A stretch of DNA of 41,847 nucleotides from Rhodothermus profundi (lineage in GTDB: Bacteria; Bacteroidota; Rhodothermia; Rhodothermales; Rhodothermaceae), in the NCBI RefSeq assembly GCF_900142415.1, contig NZ_FRAU01000010.1, positions 1-41,847 on the forward strand, written 5' to 3'. Both the position numbers and the translations under genes were made by a program. This document shows positions 20,543 through 26,032 of this stretch, in pieces (position 1 is the first letter of the stretch; every line of letters begins with the position of its first letter). Below the pieces are notes generated by a model, which saw nothing but the letters and a program-made list of their open reading frames with translations, had not been told where the DNA came from and made no database searches.

Positions 20543-21112
20543 ATGGTACTGCCTATTCATGTATACGGGGATCCCATTTTGCGGGAGCGAGCGCAGCCCG
20601 TGCAGGCCAATTCGCCCGAGCTGCAGCAGTTGCTTGACGACATGGTCGAAACCATGCATGCGGCTTCGGGCATTGGACTGGCGGCGCCTCAGGTAGGGCG
20701 TCGGGAGCGTGTTTTTGTGGTCGATCTGACGCCGCTGAAAGAAGAGCTGGAAGCTGAAGGGGAGTCGCTTCCCTCCATGCCGATGTTTTTTATCAATCCA
20801 GAAATTATCTGGACGAGTGCGGCGCAATGCAGCCTTGAAGAGGGCTGTCTCTCTATTCCGGAGGTGCGGGAAGTGGTGGAGCGGCCTGAGGCCGTTCGGG
20901 TTCGCTATCTGGACCGTCAGTTCAGGCCGCAAGAATTGGAAGCCCATGGCATGTTGGCCCGGGTCATTCAACACGAATATGACCATCTGGAAGGCATTCT
21001 CTTTATCGACCGCATCAGTGCCTTTCGACGACAGTTGTTGAAGCGACGTCTTCGGGAGATTGCGCGGGGGCACGTGTCGGCCGAGTATCCGTTAGCGCTC
21101 AGCCGGGTATAA
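20543..21112 (+). CDS. def: Peptide deformylase
   Basis: Fe(II) or Zn enzyme that removes the formyl group from nascent N-terminal methionine, the step before Map. The 189-residue product has all three motifs: GIGLAAPQVG (43-52), EGCLSIP (100-106; metal ligand C102) and HEYDH (144-148; two metal histidines and catalytic Glu). Length is typical of type I enzymes. It follows ruvX by 32 nt and probably shares its transcript. Confidence 0.96.
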   Translation: MVLPIHVYGDPILRERAQPVQANSPELQQLLDDMVETMHAASGIGLAAPQVGRRERVFVVDLTPLKEELEAEGESLPSMPMFFINPEIIWTSAAQCSLEEGCLSIPEVREVVERPEAVRVRYLDRQFRPQELEAHGMLARVIQHEYDHLEGILFIDRISAFRRQLLKRRLREIARGHVSAEYPLALSRV

Positions 21113-21177
21113 CAAACGGGCTAATTGGCACTGCTTGCTCTGAGGAACGCGTCGCTGCTATCTTCCCAGGAGCGTAA

Positions 21178-21522
21178 ATGCACCCGGGCATGCAGGCGAT
21201 GTGGCGTAAACGGGCAGCAGGGCTGCTCCTGCTTTTTCTGGTCAGTGCCGTTGGCCTACCGGCCGGCCACCAACTGGTACATGTGCTAGAGGCGGGGGCT
21301 TTCGGGTGCGTGGTGGGCAAAGGGCTCCAGCAGGCGACAAACTGCAAACACCTGCCCGATCCTTGCCGTTTGTTTGCCAGTCTGCGTTCCCTTCCGGCAG
21401 CCGGAGTAGCCTTATCCGCCTTTAAAGGCCCTGAAGAGACGATTCCTTTCTTGACCATTCAGGCAGTTGTCCCCTTCTTACCGTGGGCGCCCTTTACGCG
21501 GGCCCCACCGGTTTTGTGCTGA
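21178..21522 (+). CDS. Small exported or membrane protein, Cys/His-containing, unknown
   Basis: I do not recognise the family. The 114-residue product has a basic start (MWRKRAA, residues 8-14) and a hydrophobic segment (about 14-29) ending in GLPAG, which looks like a signal peptide or anchor, then GHQLVH and four Cys-bearing segments (GAFGCVV, TNCKH, DPCRL, final C). A second apolar stretch closes the chain. AGGAG lies six bases before the ATG. Its last five codons form the left arm of a 15-bp hairpin. Placement directly before a TonB receptor suggests a shared role, perhaps metal related; that is inference. Confidence 0.6.
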   Translation: MHPGMQAMWRKRAAGLLLLFLVSAVGLPAGHQLVHVLEAGAFGCVVGKGLQQATNCKHLPDPCRLFASLRSLPAAGVALSAFKGPEETIPFLTIQAVVPFLPWAPFTRAPPVLC

Positions 21523-21571
21523 AGCAGACCACGCATCATCGCTGCTCACCAATAGCTCAGCACAAAACCGG
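21508..21571 (+). promoter_or_regulatory. Long inverted repeat before the TonB receptor
   Basis: A perfect 15-bp stem pairs 21508-21522 with 21557-21571; inside, AGCAG (21523-21527) can pair with CTGCT (21542-21546). The left arm includes the stop codon of the small upstream gene; the right arm ends 10 nt before the receptor ATG and takes in part of its purine-rich GGATGG. No T-run follows. Probably a translational or attenuation switch of receptor synthesis. It does not match a cobalamin riboswitch by eye. Confidence 0.7.
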
Positions 21572-21581
21572 ATGGCAAGCC

Positions 21582-23837
21582 ATGAAGCATCCTGTACAGG
21601 TAGGGCTTTTATTGCTGAGTTTTCTCGTTAGCCGAGGGCTCGAAGGATATGGACAGATTCTAAAAGGACGAGTTACTGATGCCGCTACAGGGACTCCCCT
21701 GATTGGCGCTACGGTCTTTGTGCCTGCCCTTCAGATTGGAACAACAACCGATGCCGAAGGGCGTTATTGCCTGAGGTTTACTCGGACGGGTCGCTACCGC
21801 GTGCTTTTTAGCTACGTAGGTTACCAGCCTGAGGCGCGTGAGGTAACGCTCACGGACACCACGTATTTAGCGGTGAGCTTAACTCCTACGGCTATTGAAG
21901 CTCCGGGCGTAACGATTACTGCCAAGGCACAGGCTACTGATCTGCTTTCGACTCCGCAGGCGGTAACGGTGCTGGAAGGCAGGGGGCTGCGTCTGGCTCG
22001 TGGGATGACGGCTGTGGATGCGCTGGCCCAGACGCCCGGGGTACATCTACTGCACACAGGCACCGGCATAGCCAAACCGATGATTCGAGGGCTCACGGCG
22101 CAGCGCGTGCTGGTGGTGCAGGATGGAGTTCGACAGGAAGGCCAGCAATGGGGAGAAGAGCACGGGGTGGAAGTGGATGCGTACGCTCCCGAGCGTATTG
22201 AGGTCGTCAAGGGGCCTGCCAGTTTGCTTTACGGATCGGATGCACTGGGCGGTGTGGTGCAACTGGCTACAGCAGGGCCTTTCGCGTACAGGCAGCCGGT
22301 TACCGGGTCCCTTACGCTGGAAGGAGCTAGTAATACCCGAATGGGCAGCGCGCATCTGGAGATAGGAGGGCGTCAGGGCAGATGGTTCTATGGTACCAAG
22401 CTGACGCTTCGTCGGGCCGGCGCTTACGACACGCCCCGAGGACTGGTCCCCAACACCGGTCTCGCCGAGCGCAATGGTATGCTTCAGGTGGGCTATCAAG
22501 ATCATACGGCGCAGGTGCACCTGGCTTATAAGGGATACCGCGCTCGCCTGGGATTTTTCGAACCGGAAGCAGAGGAAGCGACCTCTGGGCCGGACAGGCG
22601 CTACCATATTGGGGAGCCATACCAGCGGGTGCATCATGATCTAGCCCAGCTTCGGATCCAATGGCGGCCAGGGGCTGACCGTCTGGAGCTGCACGTGGCC
22701 TGGCAGCAAAACCGACGGCAGGAATTTGAGCATGAGGAGTCGGAAGCGCTTGCAGCTGCTCGGGAAGGTCCTTCGCTTTATTTGCGGCTGCGTACGGTAA
22801 CGACCGATCTGCGCATTCACCATCGGCCAATCGGGCCTCTATTTGGCACAATCGGTTTCAGCGGTCTTTTTCAGCGTAATGAGACGCTGGCCGCGGAAGC
22901 GTTAATTCCCGGGGCACGTGTCTGGAATGGAGCTGTATACGTATTTGAAGAACTAATGCTACCCCGGTTGACCCTTAGCGGGGGAGTGCGGTGGGACGGC
23001 CGGTGGCTTTTCGTGGAGGAGAACGAAGCACTGGGGGTAAGTGCACAGCGGCGCACCTATAGCGCCTTGAGCGGCGCTGTAGGTCTGTCCTGGCGCGTGC
23101 GGCCGAATCTGGCGCTGGCGTTCCATATTGGACGCGCCTGGCGTGCGCCGACGCTCAATGAGCTTTTTTCCCGTGGGGTGCATGAAGGAGCCAGCCGGTT
23201 CGAAGTTGGCACCCCAACGCTGCGCCCCGAGCAGAGCTTCAGTGTTGACGGCACGCTTCGCTGGTTGCAACGCCGCCTGCATCTGGAGGTTAATGCCTTT
23301 GTGCATTGGATTACCCACTTTATCTTTCCCCGGCCTACCGGCCAGCGGGATAGGGATTCTGGCTTTTTTATTTATCGTTTCGATCAAGCGCAGGCGTTAC
23401 TCTGGGGTGGAGAGTTGCTTTTAAATCTGAGCATAACCGATTGGCTGCATTTGCACCTGGGAGGCGACGTTACCTATACCGAGAACCGAGCAACGCGCAC
23501 GCCGCTTCCATTTTCGCCACCGCCCCGGTTGCTTGCTGGAATTGAAGTGCATCGGGAGCGCTGGGGGGCTGCCGATGAGGTGATGCTGCGTCTGGGGCCT
23601 ACTGTTGTCGCCTCCCAGCAGCGGGTTGCTCCAGACGAGGCCCCTACCGATGGCTATGTGGTCTGGCACCTGGCGTTTTCGGCTTCTTGGCCACTGGGCG
23701 CCTGGCGATTGGTGACCGATCTGACCGTTCAGAATCTCCTAAATCGGGCTTATGTTAGCCATTTAAGTCGGCTGCGTCCTTATGGCGTGTTGGAGCCAGG
23801 ACGAAACGTTCAGCTACGTCTTGTGCTGCAGAGGTAA
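21582..23837 (+). CDS. TonB-dependent outer-membrane receptor
   Basis: Gated beta-barrel for uptake of a scarce ligand, energised by TonB-ExbBD. The 751-residue product has a signal peptide (1-24, MKHPVQVGLLLLSF...), a carboxypeptidase-regulatory-like domain (~27-105, GRVTDAATGTPLIGATV), a plug (~120-232) with IRGLTAQRVLVVQDGV (168-183) and VVKGPASLLYGSDALGG (208-224), then the barrel. I start at ATG 21582; the upstream 21483 start would lie across the hairpin and precede the signal peptide. The plug motif and His-rich segments (RVHHDLAQ, RIHHRPIG) resemble ZnuD-like receptors, so zinc is a possible ligand but unproven. It is not SusC-sized. Confidence 0.88.
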   Translation: MKHPVQVGLLLLSFLVSRGLEGYGQILKGRVTDAATGTPLIGATVFVPALQIGTTTDAEGRYCLRFTRTGRYRVLFSYVGYQPEAREVTLTDTTYLAVSLTPTAIEAPGVTITAKAQATDLLSTPQAVTVLEGRGLRLARGMTAVDALAQTPGVHLLHTGTGIAKPMIRGLTAQRVLVVQDGVRQEGQQWGEEHGVEVDAYAPERIEVVKGPASLLYGSDALGGVVQLATAGPFAYRQPVTGSLTLEGASNTRMGSAHLEIGGRQGRWFYGTKLTLRRAGAYDTPRGLVPNTGLAERNGMLQVGYQDHTAQVHLAYKGYRARLGFFEPEAEEATSGPDRRYHIGEPYQRVHHDLAQLRIQWRPGADRLELHVAWQQNRRQEFEHEESEALAAAREGPSLYLRLRTVTTDLRIHHRPIGPLFGTIGFSGLFQRNETLAAEALIPGARVWNGAVYVFEELMLPRLTLSGGVRWDGRWLFVEENEALGVSAQRRTYSALSGAVGLSWRVRPNLALAFHIGRAWRAPTLNELFSRGVHEGASRFEVGTPTLRPEQSFSVDGTLRWLQRRLHLEVNAFVHWITHFIFPRPTGQRDRDSGFFIYRFDQAQALLWGGELLLNLSITDWLHLHLGGDVTYTENRATRTPLPFSPPPRLLAGIEVHRERWGAADEVMLRLGPTVVASQQRVAPDEAPTDGYVVWHLAFSASWPLGAWRLVTDLTVQNLLNRAYVSHLSRLRPYGVLEPGRNVQLRLVLQR

Positions 23838-23874
23838 TGTGTCCGTAAGCAGAGCGAGGTAGCAGGGCTGAAGT

Positions 23875-23920
23875 CCGAAACGAAAGGCGCCTTTGCTCAA
23901 TGAGGCGCCTTTCGTTTCGG
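23875..23920. terminator. Bidirectional terminator between convergent genes
   Basis: A perfect 17-bp stem (23875-23891 with 23904-23920) around a 12-base loop. Each arm carries CTTTCGTTTC-type T-rich sequence on its own 3' side, so it can work from either direction. It lies between the TonB receptor (+) and the ppiD-like gene (-), 37 and 21 nt from their ends. Confidence 0.75.
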
Positions 23921-23941
23921 GAGGTGGTTCAGCGGGTGGTG

Positions 23942-26032
23942 TTACAGCTCAAATCGACGGCGGTAATCTTTGATGTCCGCTTGCTCACGCAGCGCAGCCA
24001 GCCACTGAGCCAGGACTTGTTGGCGTCGCTGACTGAGCAATTGCTGCCGAATCTGTTCGCGCATCTGTGCGCTCAGGGGAGGCGGTTCATACAGCCTGGT
24101 TAGCTGCACCACGAAGGCAGCGTTTTCCCCTGCAACGACATCGGACGTCTCGCCTTCCTGCAGCCCGAACACGGTGCCGATGAAGCGCGGCTCACGGCCC
24201 AGTCCAGGAATCAGCGTTTGATTATAGCTAAGCTGAGTGACAGTTTGCACGGTGGTGCCCAGCGCTTCGGCCAGGCCCTCAAAGCCGTGTTGCTGCAGCG
24301 CTTGCCGCAGGCGGGCTACCTGCACTTCTTTTTTCTTTTCCAGCAGCACACGGGGGCGGATTTCATTGCGGACTTCTTCAAAAGAGCGGTATCCTTCGGG
24401 CGTTACTTCGACGAGCTGCAGGACGATAAACCGGTCGTCCAGTTCGATGACCTGGCTGATGTCGCCTTCGTCTGCGTCGGCGAGGAAGTTCAGGATGGCT
24501 CGGCTCTGACCAATTCCGGGCAGAAATTGCTGTCCTTCCTCAATGCGCATTTCCTGCACCTGCAATCCCATGCGTTGGGCTTCGCCCTCAAAGTCGCCGG
24601 AGTCTTCTGCAAAGTATGCCAGGTCTTCCATGCGTTCCTGGATACGGTTCAGCGTAGCCAGGGAGGGGGTCAGGCGCATGGCCAGGTCAGCGATCTGCAC
24701 CTCCAGGTTAGAGCGGCCGGTTACTTCAATCAGGTGGTAGCCGAAGCGCGTGGCAACAGGTCCGACGACGCGGCCGATCGGCGCTGAGAAAGCCGCTTTT
24801 TCGAAGGGTTCGACCATGCGGCCGCGTCCGAACCAGCCGAGATCGCCTCCGCGGCGAGCGCTTCCAGGGTCGTCGGAGTGCTCACGGGCCAGGGTGGCAA
24901 AGTCGGCTCCTTGTTCGAGTTGGCGTTTCAGTGCCAGGGCTTCCTGGCGGGCCTGGCGGCGAGCTTCCGGGTCATCTTCGGGGGCGCGGATCAGGATGTG
25001 CCGGGCGCGGATGACGGTTTCCGAGGCGGGGCGTACGGCCCGAATTTTAATCAGGTGCGCCAGGCCGCCGGCGATCACCGGTCCTACAACCTTGCCCGGT
25101 TGGGGGTCGTCAAAGATTACGTCGCCCAGCGCTGGGTCTAGTTCGTCCCGGCGGAAGAAAGCATCGGTGAAGGGCCGTTCTGAAGCATAGCGGGCCAGGA
25201 AGAGCGAGTCGTTTTCGGCCTGGGCAAAGCGTTCTTTGAGGTGAGTTAGTTCTTCGAGCACCTGCAGGGTGTCTTCAGCGGTGGGATTCTTGGGCAGGGT
25301 AACGTAGGCGACCCGATAGGTGCGGTTGCGTTTGAAGTCCTCCCGATGCTGGTTGTAGTAGCGGCGCAGGTCGCTTTCGGTAACCGAGACGGAATCGTCT
25401 GGCACTTCTGCGTAGCGGAGTGCGACGTAGCGTGCGTCCGCCCGCAGCGTGCGTCGGCGGTACGTTTCTTCCACTTCCTGATCAGAGACGCGTACGGTAG
25501 CGAGCAGGAGCTGCTCCAGTTTCTGCCGAGCGCGCTCGGCGCGCAGGAATTCTTCGAGTCGAATCCAGTCTTCACGGGCTGCCGGGTTGTCGATAAAGTT
25601 TTGCAGGAGCGCCCGGTTGACGTTACCGTTTTCGTCGCCGAAGTAGGCTTTAATAATGGGATGGGGGTTATCGCCCAGGACCATCTGTACGACTTCGTCA
25701 TCGGTCACCGTAATGCCCAGACGTTCCATAGCCTGCTGGCGCAGGCGGTCTTCGACGAGCGCATTGAAGACCTGTTCGCGAATCAGGTCGCTCATCTGCG
25801 GGGTAGGCGATTCGCCCGTCTGTTGCTGATAAGCCTGCATCTGGGCTTCGATTGCCCGGACGTATTCCTGGTACGAAATGGGGTCCCCGTTCACTTCGGC
25901 GATGGTGTCGCCGGTGCGTCCGACGACATCGAAGGCGCCCGAATCCTGCAGCACCCAGATAATGCCAAAGGAGATCACCAGAATCCACAGAATGACTCCG
26001 GTGTTCTCCCGGAGTTTATTCATGACACCCAT
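23942..26032 (-). CDS. ppiD: PpiD-like membrane-anchored peptidyl-prolyl isomerase/chaperone
   Basis: Periplasm-facing chaperone for outer-membrane and secreted proteins. About 696 residues from ATG 26032: a single N-terminal membrane helix (about 11-28, [15 protein letters not shown]), a SurA_N-like helical region (~45-220), a parvulin domain (~340-440: [29 protein letters not shown]), and a second half with a further substrate-binding-like region. The ATG at 26023 is an equally possible start three residues later. It is downstream of fliA but separated by a probable terminator, so it may not be part of the flagellar operon. Confidence 0.87.

Follow-up and report, generated by a model that had tools for sequence, protein, structure and literature searches.

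A conserved small reading frame ending in RAPP pairs with the start region of a TonB-dependent receptor gene in Rhodothermus profundi: a candidate metal-responsive arrest peptide

Within a 41,847-nt stretch of Rhodothermus profundi DNA (contig NZ_FRAU01000010.1, positions 1 to 41,847; hereafter the window), we found a small ORF whose protein ends in RAPP and whose final codons and stop codon form a perfect 15-bp stem with the sequence in front of a TonB-dependent receptor gene. We propose, with a probability of roughly 0.6, that this ORF encodes a metal-responsive arrest peptide acting like CruR and CutF, and that its arrest opens the receptor start. We infer arrest in this organism, a metal as the ligand, and a response in which metal turns the receptor off, the sign of that response following from the CruR precedent and from the logic of an uptake receptor.

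The arms of the stem lie on the plus strand at 21508-21522 (CCGGTTTTGTGCTGA) and 21557-21571 (TCAGCACAAAACCGG), with 15 of 15 Watson-Crick pairs across a 34-nt loop. The left arm reads CCG GTT TTG TGC TGA, the four final sense codons and the stop of the small ORF, and the right arm occupies positions -25 to -11 relative to the receptor ATG at 21582. By itself the right arm touches just the first two G of the receptor's weak Shine-Dalgarno (SD)-like GGATGG (21570..21575, plus strand); in the predicted fold, CCA at 21505-21507 extends the left arm by pairing with TGG at 21573-21575 past one bulged A, so that GGATGG is covered. The minimum-energy fold also contains a small inner hairpin (21523..21546, plus strand; AGCAG 21523-21527 with CTGCT 21542-21546) directly 3′ of the small ORF's stop codon, and hairpins just 3′ of the left arm occur in other genus folds as well. 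The sequence-only reading had described a perfect 15-bp stem that holds the end of the small gene in its left arm, masks the receptor start and matches no known riboswitch, and each of these points was supported: with loops of 3-60 nt, the window holds two perfect inverted repeats of at least 15 bp (this stem and one at 23875), against none in 100 dinucleotide shuffles, and an Rfam covariance-model scan of the window at the gathering score returned 0 matches, hence no known riboswitch at the stem. Folding of 21496-21587 gave a z of -4.71, with 0 of 200 shuffles as good, and the longer stretch 21480-21610 a z of -3.45, with 1 of 200 as good. Three terminator-like sites were found in a scan of 20900-24200, none at the stem, and the right arm is followed by ATGGCAAGCC, without the T-run of an intrinsic terminator. 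Genome-wide, the only exact copies of the arm sequence are the two stem arms; near-copies with up to 3 mismatches number 152 in the window genome versus 38 for the reversed pattern, a surplus that probably reflects composition. The repeat at 23875-23920, with 18 perfect base pairs and a short loop, lies between the receptor gene and a convergent minus-strand gene and looks like a two-way terminator.

The small ORF (21178..21522, plus strand) encodes 114 aa, with a hydrophobic leader, H31, H35, C63 and RAPP (R108-P111; codons CGG GCC CCA CCG at 21499..21510, plus strand) followed by VLC and the stop codon, for a C-terminal end of T-R-A-P-P-V-L-C. An orthologous ORF at the same place ends in RAPP plus 1-3 residues in all seven genus genomes, and the residues invariant across the genus include H31, H35, P60-C63 and R108-P111. 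In all seven genus proteins, Cys63 and Arg108 are separated by 44 residues, although the intervening stretch is poorly conserved. Differences fall mostly at third codon positions in 20 of the 21 genus genome pairs (the other is a tie), and dN/dS ranges from 0.08 to 0.59 in four close genus pairs; the small ORF therefore behaves as a translated gene and is under purifying selection, which bears out the earlier assumption of a conserved coding sequence. None of the seven genus proteins matched a Pfam family at E up to 10 or contained a CXXC motif, PF11162 (DUF2946) had no match in the window genome at E up to 1, and NCBIfam gave one weak match of the small proteins, to an unrelated family. The ORF is preceded by AGGAG, and some neighbouring genes also have SD-like starts. 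In the gap that separates the small ORF from the stop of the gene upstream, we noted a weak candidate promoter for the small-gene/receptor unit (21135..21164, plus strand; TTGC 21135-21138 and TATCTT 21159-21164), with boxes that we take to resemble Bacteroidetes -33/-7 boxes; comparable spacing of TTGC with TATCTT or TATTTT was seen by eye in G002, G004 and G005, and a sigma-70 promoter scan of 20900-24200 showed no promoter-like site.

The receptor gene (21582..23837, plus strand) encodes 751 aa with Pfam PF00593, PF07715 and PF13715, in an architecture of a carboxypeptidase-regulatory-like N-terminal domain, plug and barrel. Its closest solved structure is ZnuD (E 2.9e-24), and the heme and ZnuD models of NCBIfam ranked at the top, with a copper model weaker and all of them below cut-offs. 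Receptor orthologues are 77, 77, 76, 76 and 67% identical in five genus genomes and fragmentary in a sixth. In the genus genome G005, one contig carries receptor pieces interrupted by internal stops (C90:11887-13338), and the upstream ORF with an N-terminal receptor piece sits at the end of a different contig, a split that is possibly a broken copy or an assembly break. The spacer between small ORF and receptor is 59 nt here and 56 to 86 nt across the genus. At the position of GGATGG, relatives carry GGAGG, GGAG or GGGG; a crude scan of 38 window ORFs revealed no general SD enrichment, and conserved 16S 3′-end motifs gave no match in the seven genus genomes searched.

Among the seven genus folds, the RAPP codons were paired to the receptor initiation region in every case (z -1.96 to -4.71). 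Stem covariation, which the sequence-only reading had named as a check, is present within the genus but modest: with arm registers assigned by script, double changes occur at six of 18 stem positions, and pairing is just as good when arms are exchanged between the four nearest genomes. Upstream of paralogous genus receptors, an R[A/G]PP ORF was found at 0 of 20 loci.

We compared this arrangement with published systems as described in the excerpts of the papers drawn on here. RAPP is a ribosome-arrest motif, and arrest peptides that carry it are described in PMC10951233, PMC10987492 and PMC12992588. CruR, a DUF2946 uORF of Bordetella pertussis, controls the TonB transporter BfrG by copper through Rho-dependent termination before the TonB gene, with a 162-nt spacer and 45 residues between CXXC and RAPP that are conserved in the CruR family (PMC9426467), and it arrests in vitro at RAPP with its two Pro codons occupying the P and A sites (PMC12992588). 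Like CruR, the small ORF lies directly upstream of a TonB receptor and encodes a small exported-type protein with a Cys about 45 residues before a C-terminal RAPP; unlike CruR, with its CXXC, 162-nt spacer and Rho-dependent termination, it lacks both a CXXC and a Pfam DUF2946 match, its spacer is 59 nt, and a stem covers the receptor start. CutF, a DUF2946 protein of Rhodobacter capsulatus, controls cutO through an SD-masking stem-loop (PMC9973294) and shares with the present system its small size, export, Cys motif, Pro-rich end and a stem over the next gene's SD; the excerpts of PMC9973294 do not describe that end as RAPP, and the target of CutF, in contrast to the receptor here, is a copper-induced multicopper oxidase. 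The reported sign of the copper response is off for the CruR target and on for the CutF target (PMC9426467, PMC9973294). SecM and RAPP arrest peptides such as ApdA and ApdP likewise have a C-terminal arrest motif whose stalled ribosome disrupts a stem hiding the next SD (PMC10987492, PMC10951233), whereas they monitor protein export, control sec or yidC genes and, in the excerpts used, have no metal motif. Secreted small R[A/G]PP proteins before TonB receptors form a bioinformatic class across Gram-negative phyla (PMC12992588); peptide type and position are the same here, and the stem and its geometry are added, since the main text of that paper contains no mention of stem-loop, hairpin, Shine, secondary structure, intergenic or Rhodotherm. 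Within the open-licence literature, this general class is in print (PMC12992588) and we found no publication on the stem itself. The small gene thus shows the roughly 45-residue distance from Cys motif to RAPP typical of DUF2946 (44 in 7 of 7 genus proteins), the placement of R[A/G]PP close to the C-terminal end of a small ORF preceding its target gene that marks RAPP-type peptides, and the pairing of a leader-ORF end with the next gene's initiation region that marks SD-masking systems (in 7 of 7 genus folds and in short-spacer loci). Because it has neither a Pfam match nor a CXXC, we filed it with the arrest-peptide uORFs and not under DUF2946; by analogy, its mode of action would combine CutF's RNA with CruR's peptide.

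Focusing on the wider order, we built a second profile from fifteen order-level ORFs that either the genus profile or the DUF2946 model had detected and that were chosen for their R[A/G]PP ends, with genus sequences kept out. This profile matched 85 of 114 order genomes (E up to 0.05), six of the seven genus genomes among them, and its one match in the window genome was the small ORF described here. Comparison of the order and genus profiles gave a probability of 96.6 and an E of 6e-10, over just 36 N-terminal leader-type columns. We assembled 117 loci (7 from the genus, 30 from the order-profile search and 80 fetched, with 10 low-scoring profile rows left out), of which 109 have R[A/G]PP within 12 residues of the stop, a share that is not independent of the search since the profile contains the motif; the other 8, one of them cut by a contig end, were dropped. 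In every one of the 109, a Cys precedes the Arg by 40-50 residues (exactly 44 in 52 loci), and 71 have a CXXC 25-70 residues before it by manual count. Against PF11162, 11 of the 15 members of the order-level alignment matched at E up to 10 (best 1.3e-6), some of them having been found with that model. The downstream protein resembles the window's receptor in 66 of the 109 loci.

The left region of each locus was then paired in silico against the 32 nt preceding the downstream start, and judged at the 5% level against three controls: (a) windows within the downstream gene, (b) dinucleotide-shuffled sequence and (c) upstream windows of the same ORF. Two of the 109 loci, with spacers below 38 nt, were dropped, and the short-spacer class was defined as 38-130 nt, the 130-nt limit being set post hoc after the spacers had been seen. 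The numbers of loci at this level under (a), (b) and (c) were 3, 6 and 7 of 7 in the genus, 5, 15 and 14 of 29 for short-spacer TonB loci outside the genus, and 0, 1 and 4 of 29 for long-spacer TonB loci; for non-TonB loci they were 2, 5 and 6 of 18 with short spacers and 1, 1 and 2 of 24 with long ones. After dereplication and with G+C-matched swapping, the short-spacer TonB set (n=24) gave p=5.5e-4, or p=0.006 with the RAPP codons excluded, while the long-spacer set showed a weaker effect (p=0.0028, and 0.063 without these codons). A shuffle z below -1.65 was reached by 12 of 24 dereplicated short-spacer TonB loci versus 1 of 25 long-spacer ones, and the non-TonB short-spacer loci gave a swap p of 0.07, with 6 of 16 by shuffles. 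The stem signal is missing in about half of the short-spacer loci.

Beyond the order, a receptor scan of named genomes yielded 24 relatives in Bacteroidota and neighbouring groups at 26-32% identity. An R[A/G]PP ORF lies upstream of 12 of these, always with a Cys that precedes the Arg by 43-49 residues; two further loci are near misses. Only L223 passed both stem controls applied there (shuffles and upstream windows), and the other 11 of the 12 loci failed at least one. A profile search of 394 phylum genomes matched 32, all within the window's own order, so the ORFs outside the order, which were found by synteny, are beyond the profile's reach. Since R[A/G]PP ORFs precede distant receptors mostly without the stem, the pairing of peptide and receptor appears older and wider than the stem. 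The earlier expectation of a stem near homologous receptors thus holds for 7 of 7 genus folds and about half of the short-spacer TonB loci in the order, but mostly fails at the 12 distant Bacteroidota-type loci that keep the motif.

In the mechanism that we favor, the 15-bp stem would form whenever no ribosome occupies the end of the small ORF, and would hide the receptor initiation region. When metal is scarce, the ribosome making the small exported protein would stall at RAPP, cover the left arm and hold the stem open, allowing the receptor to be translated; binding of metal to the nascent chain, with His31, His35 and Cys63 as candidate ligands, would relieve the arrest, and the ribosome would leave, the stem close and receptor synthesis stop. 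If arrest is placed as in CruR, CCA at 21505-21507 would occupy the P site and CCG at 21508-21510 the A site. Stalled ribosomes leave toeprints roughly 15 nt beyond the P-site codon; from the coordinates, the front edge would then be near 21520, and so the left arm would be covered. The idea that translation of the small gene licenses the receptor stands insofar as the stem would be opened by ribosomes that reach the end of that gene; the RAPP arrest had not been foreseen, and given this C-terminal motif, a ribosome stalled on the left arm is by analogy the likelier signal than mere passage and termination. In favor of this model we counted that some relatives have metal-type genes downstream (of ten scanned, two were MbnP and one was CobW), and against it the weak SD of the receptor itself, GGATGG, and the within-receptor-gene control, where just three of the seven genus loci and five of the 29 short-spacer loci reached the 5% level.

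One competing account, the idea of the sequence-only reading, is plain translational coupling, in which any ribosome at the small-gene stop opens the stem with neither programmed arrest nor ligand. The stop codon does lie within the left arm, where ordinary termination would disturb the stem too, yet coupling leaves unexplained the presence of a RAPP end in all seven genomes, the fixed 44-residue spacing from Cys to RAPP, and the RAPP-type ORFs before stem-less distant receptors, and we regard it as unlikely. We give a still smaller chance to a RAPP arrest that is relieved by protein export, as in a SecM-kind secretion monitor, and not by metal: conserved His and Cys at a fixed distance from RAPP, metal-type genes downstream in some relatives, and a receptor instead of a Sec or YidC gene as the next gene all speak against it, despite the protein's hydrophobic leader and the Sec monitors among published RAPP-type arrest peptides (excerpts of PMC10951233, PMC10987492).

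That the stalled ribosome instead blocks Rho, with a transcriptional read-out and the stem secondary, seems very unlikely at this locus, which combines a strong stem with a spacer of 59 nt as opposed to CruR's 162, even though CruR does use Rho-dependent termination before its TonB gene (excerpts of PMC9426467) and the stem signal is slight in long-spacer relatives (1 of 25). Any perfect inverted repeat is also compatible with a DNA operator, a terminator or a mobile repeat; a coding left arm, arms shifted by the 56-86 nt variation in genus spacers, the missing T-run after the right arm and the lack of a third exact arm copy in the genome make a DNA element of this kind highly improbable. Least credible to us is chance, whereby Pro-Pro codons and an SD are inherently complementary and the longer stem of this genome is accidental. 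CCTCC and GGAGG do pair by themselves and arms swapped within the genus pair well, but 100 shuffles gave 0 repeats of 15 bp, and the swap test was significant even when the RAPP codons were excluded (p=0.006).

Returning to the metal-responsive arrest peptide, a broader and distinctly more doubtful extension is an order-wide family of nascent-chain sensors, in which the His-His-Cys site of the genus would replace CXXC and spacer length would pick the read-out: with short spacers, the arrest codons would serve as the anti-SD strand and the arm would approximate the stalled ribosome's downstream footprint, and with long spacers the read-out would be another, perhaps transcriptional. If the arrest-peptide reading is true, receptor-mediated uptake in this part of the tree would be governed by a nascent peptide, which would replace a DNA-binding regulator or act beside one. 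The family would then provide a wealth of naturally varied peptides, spacers and stems, making the wiring of one arrest motif to different outputs directly testable, and at this locus peptide, stem and receptor start span about 410 nt, which fits one cell-free template.

The order loci without a receptor-like neighbor have varied downstream genes. Among ten of these 43 other downstream proteins, Pfam identified two MbnP, one CobW, one periplasmic binding protein and one ABC ATPase, with five uninformative. RAPP ORFs lie upstream of a CobW-type GTPase at L098 and L117 (in G032 and G022), the former recognized by Pfam and the latter by sequence similarity. At four loci from other families of the order, a small putative lipoprotein is encoded after the R[A/G]PP ORF (L095:1958-2452, L086:540-1037, L132:1070-1519 and L101:949-1377); those at L095, L132 and L101 matched no Pfam family at E 0.01, and some of the four have His/Asp-rich stretches.
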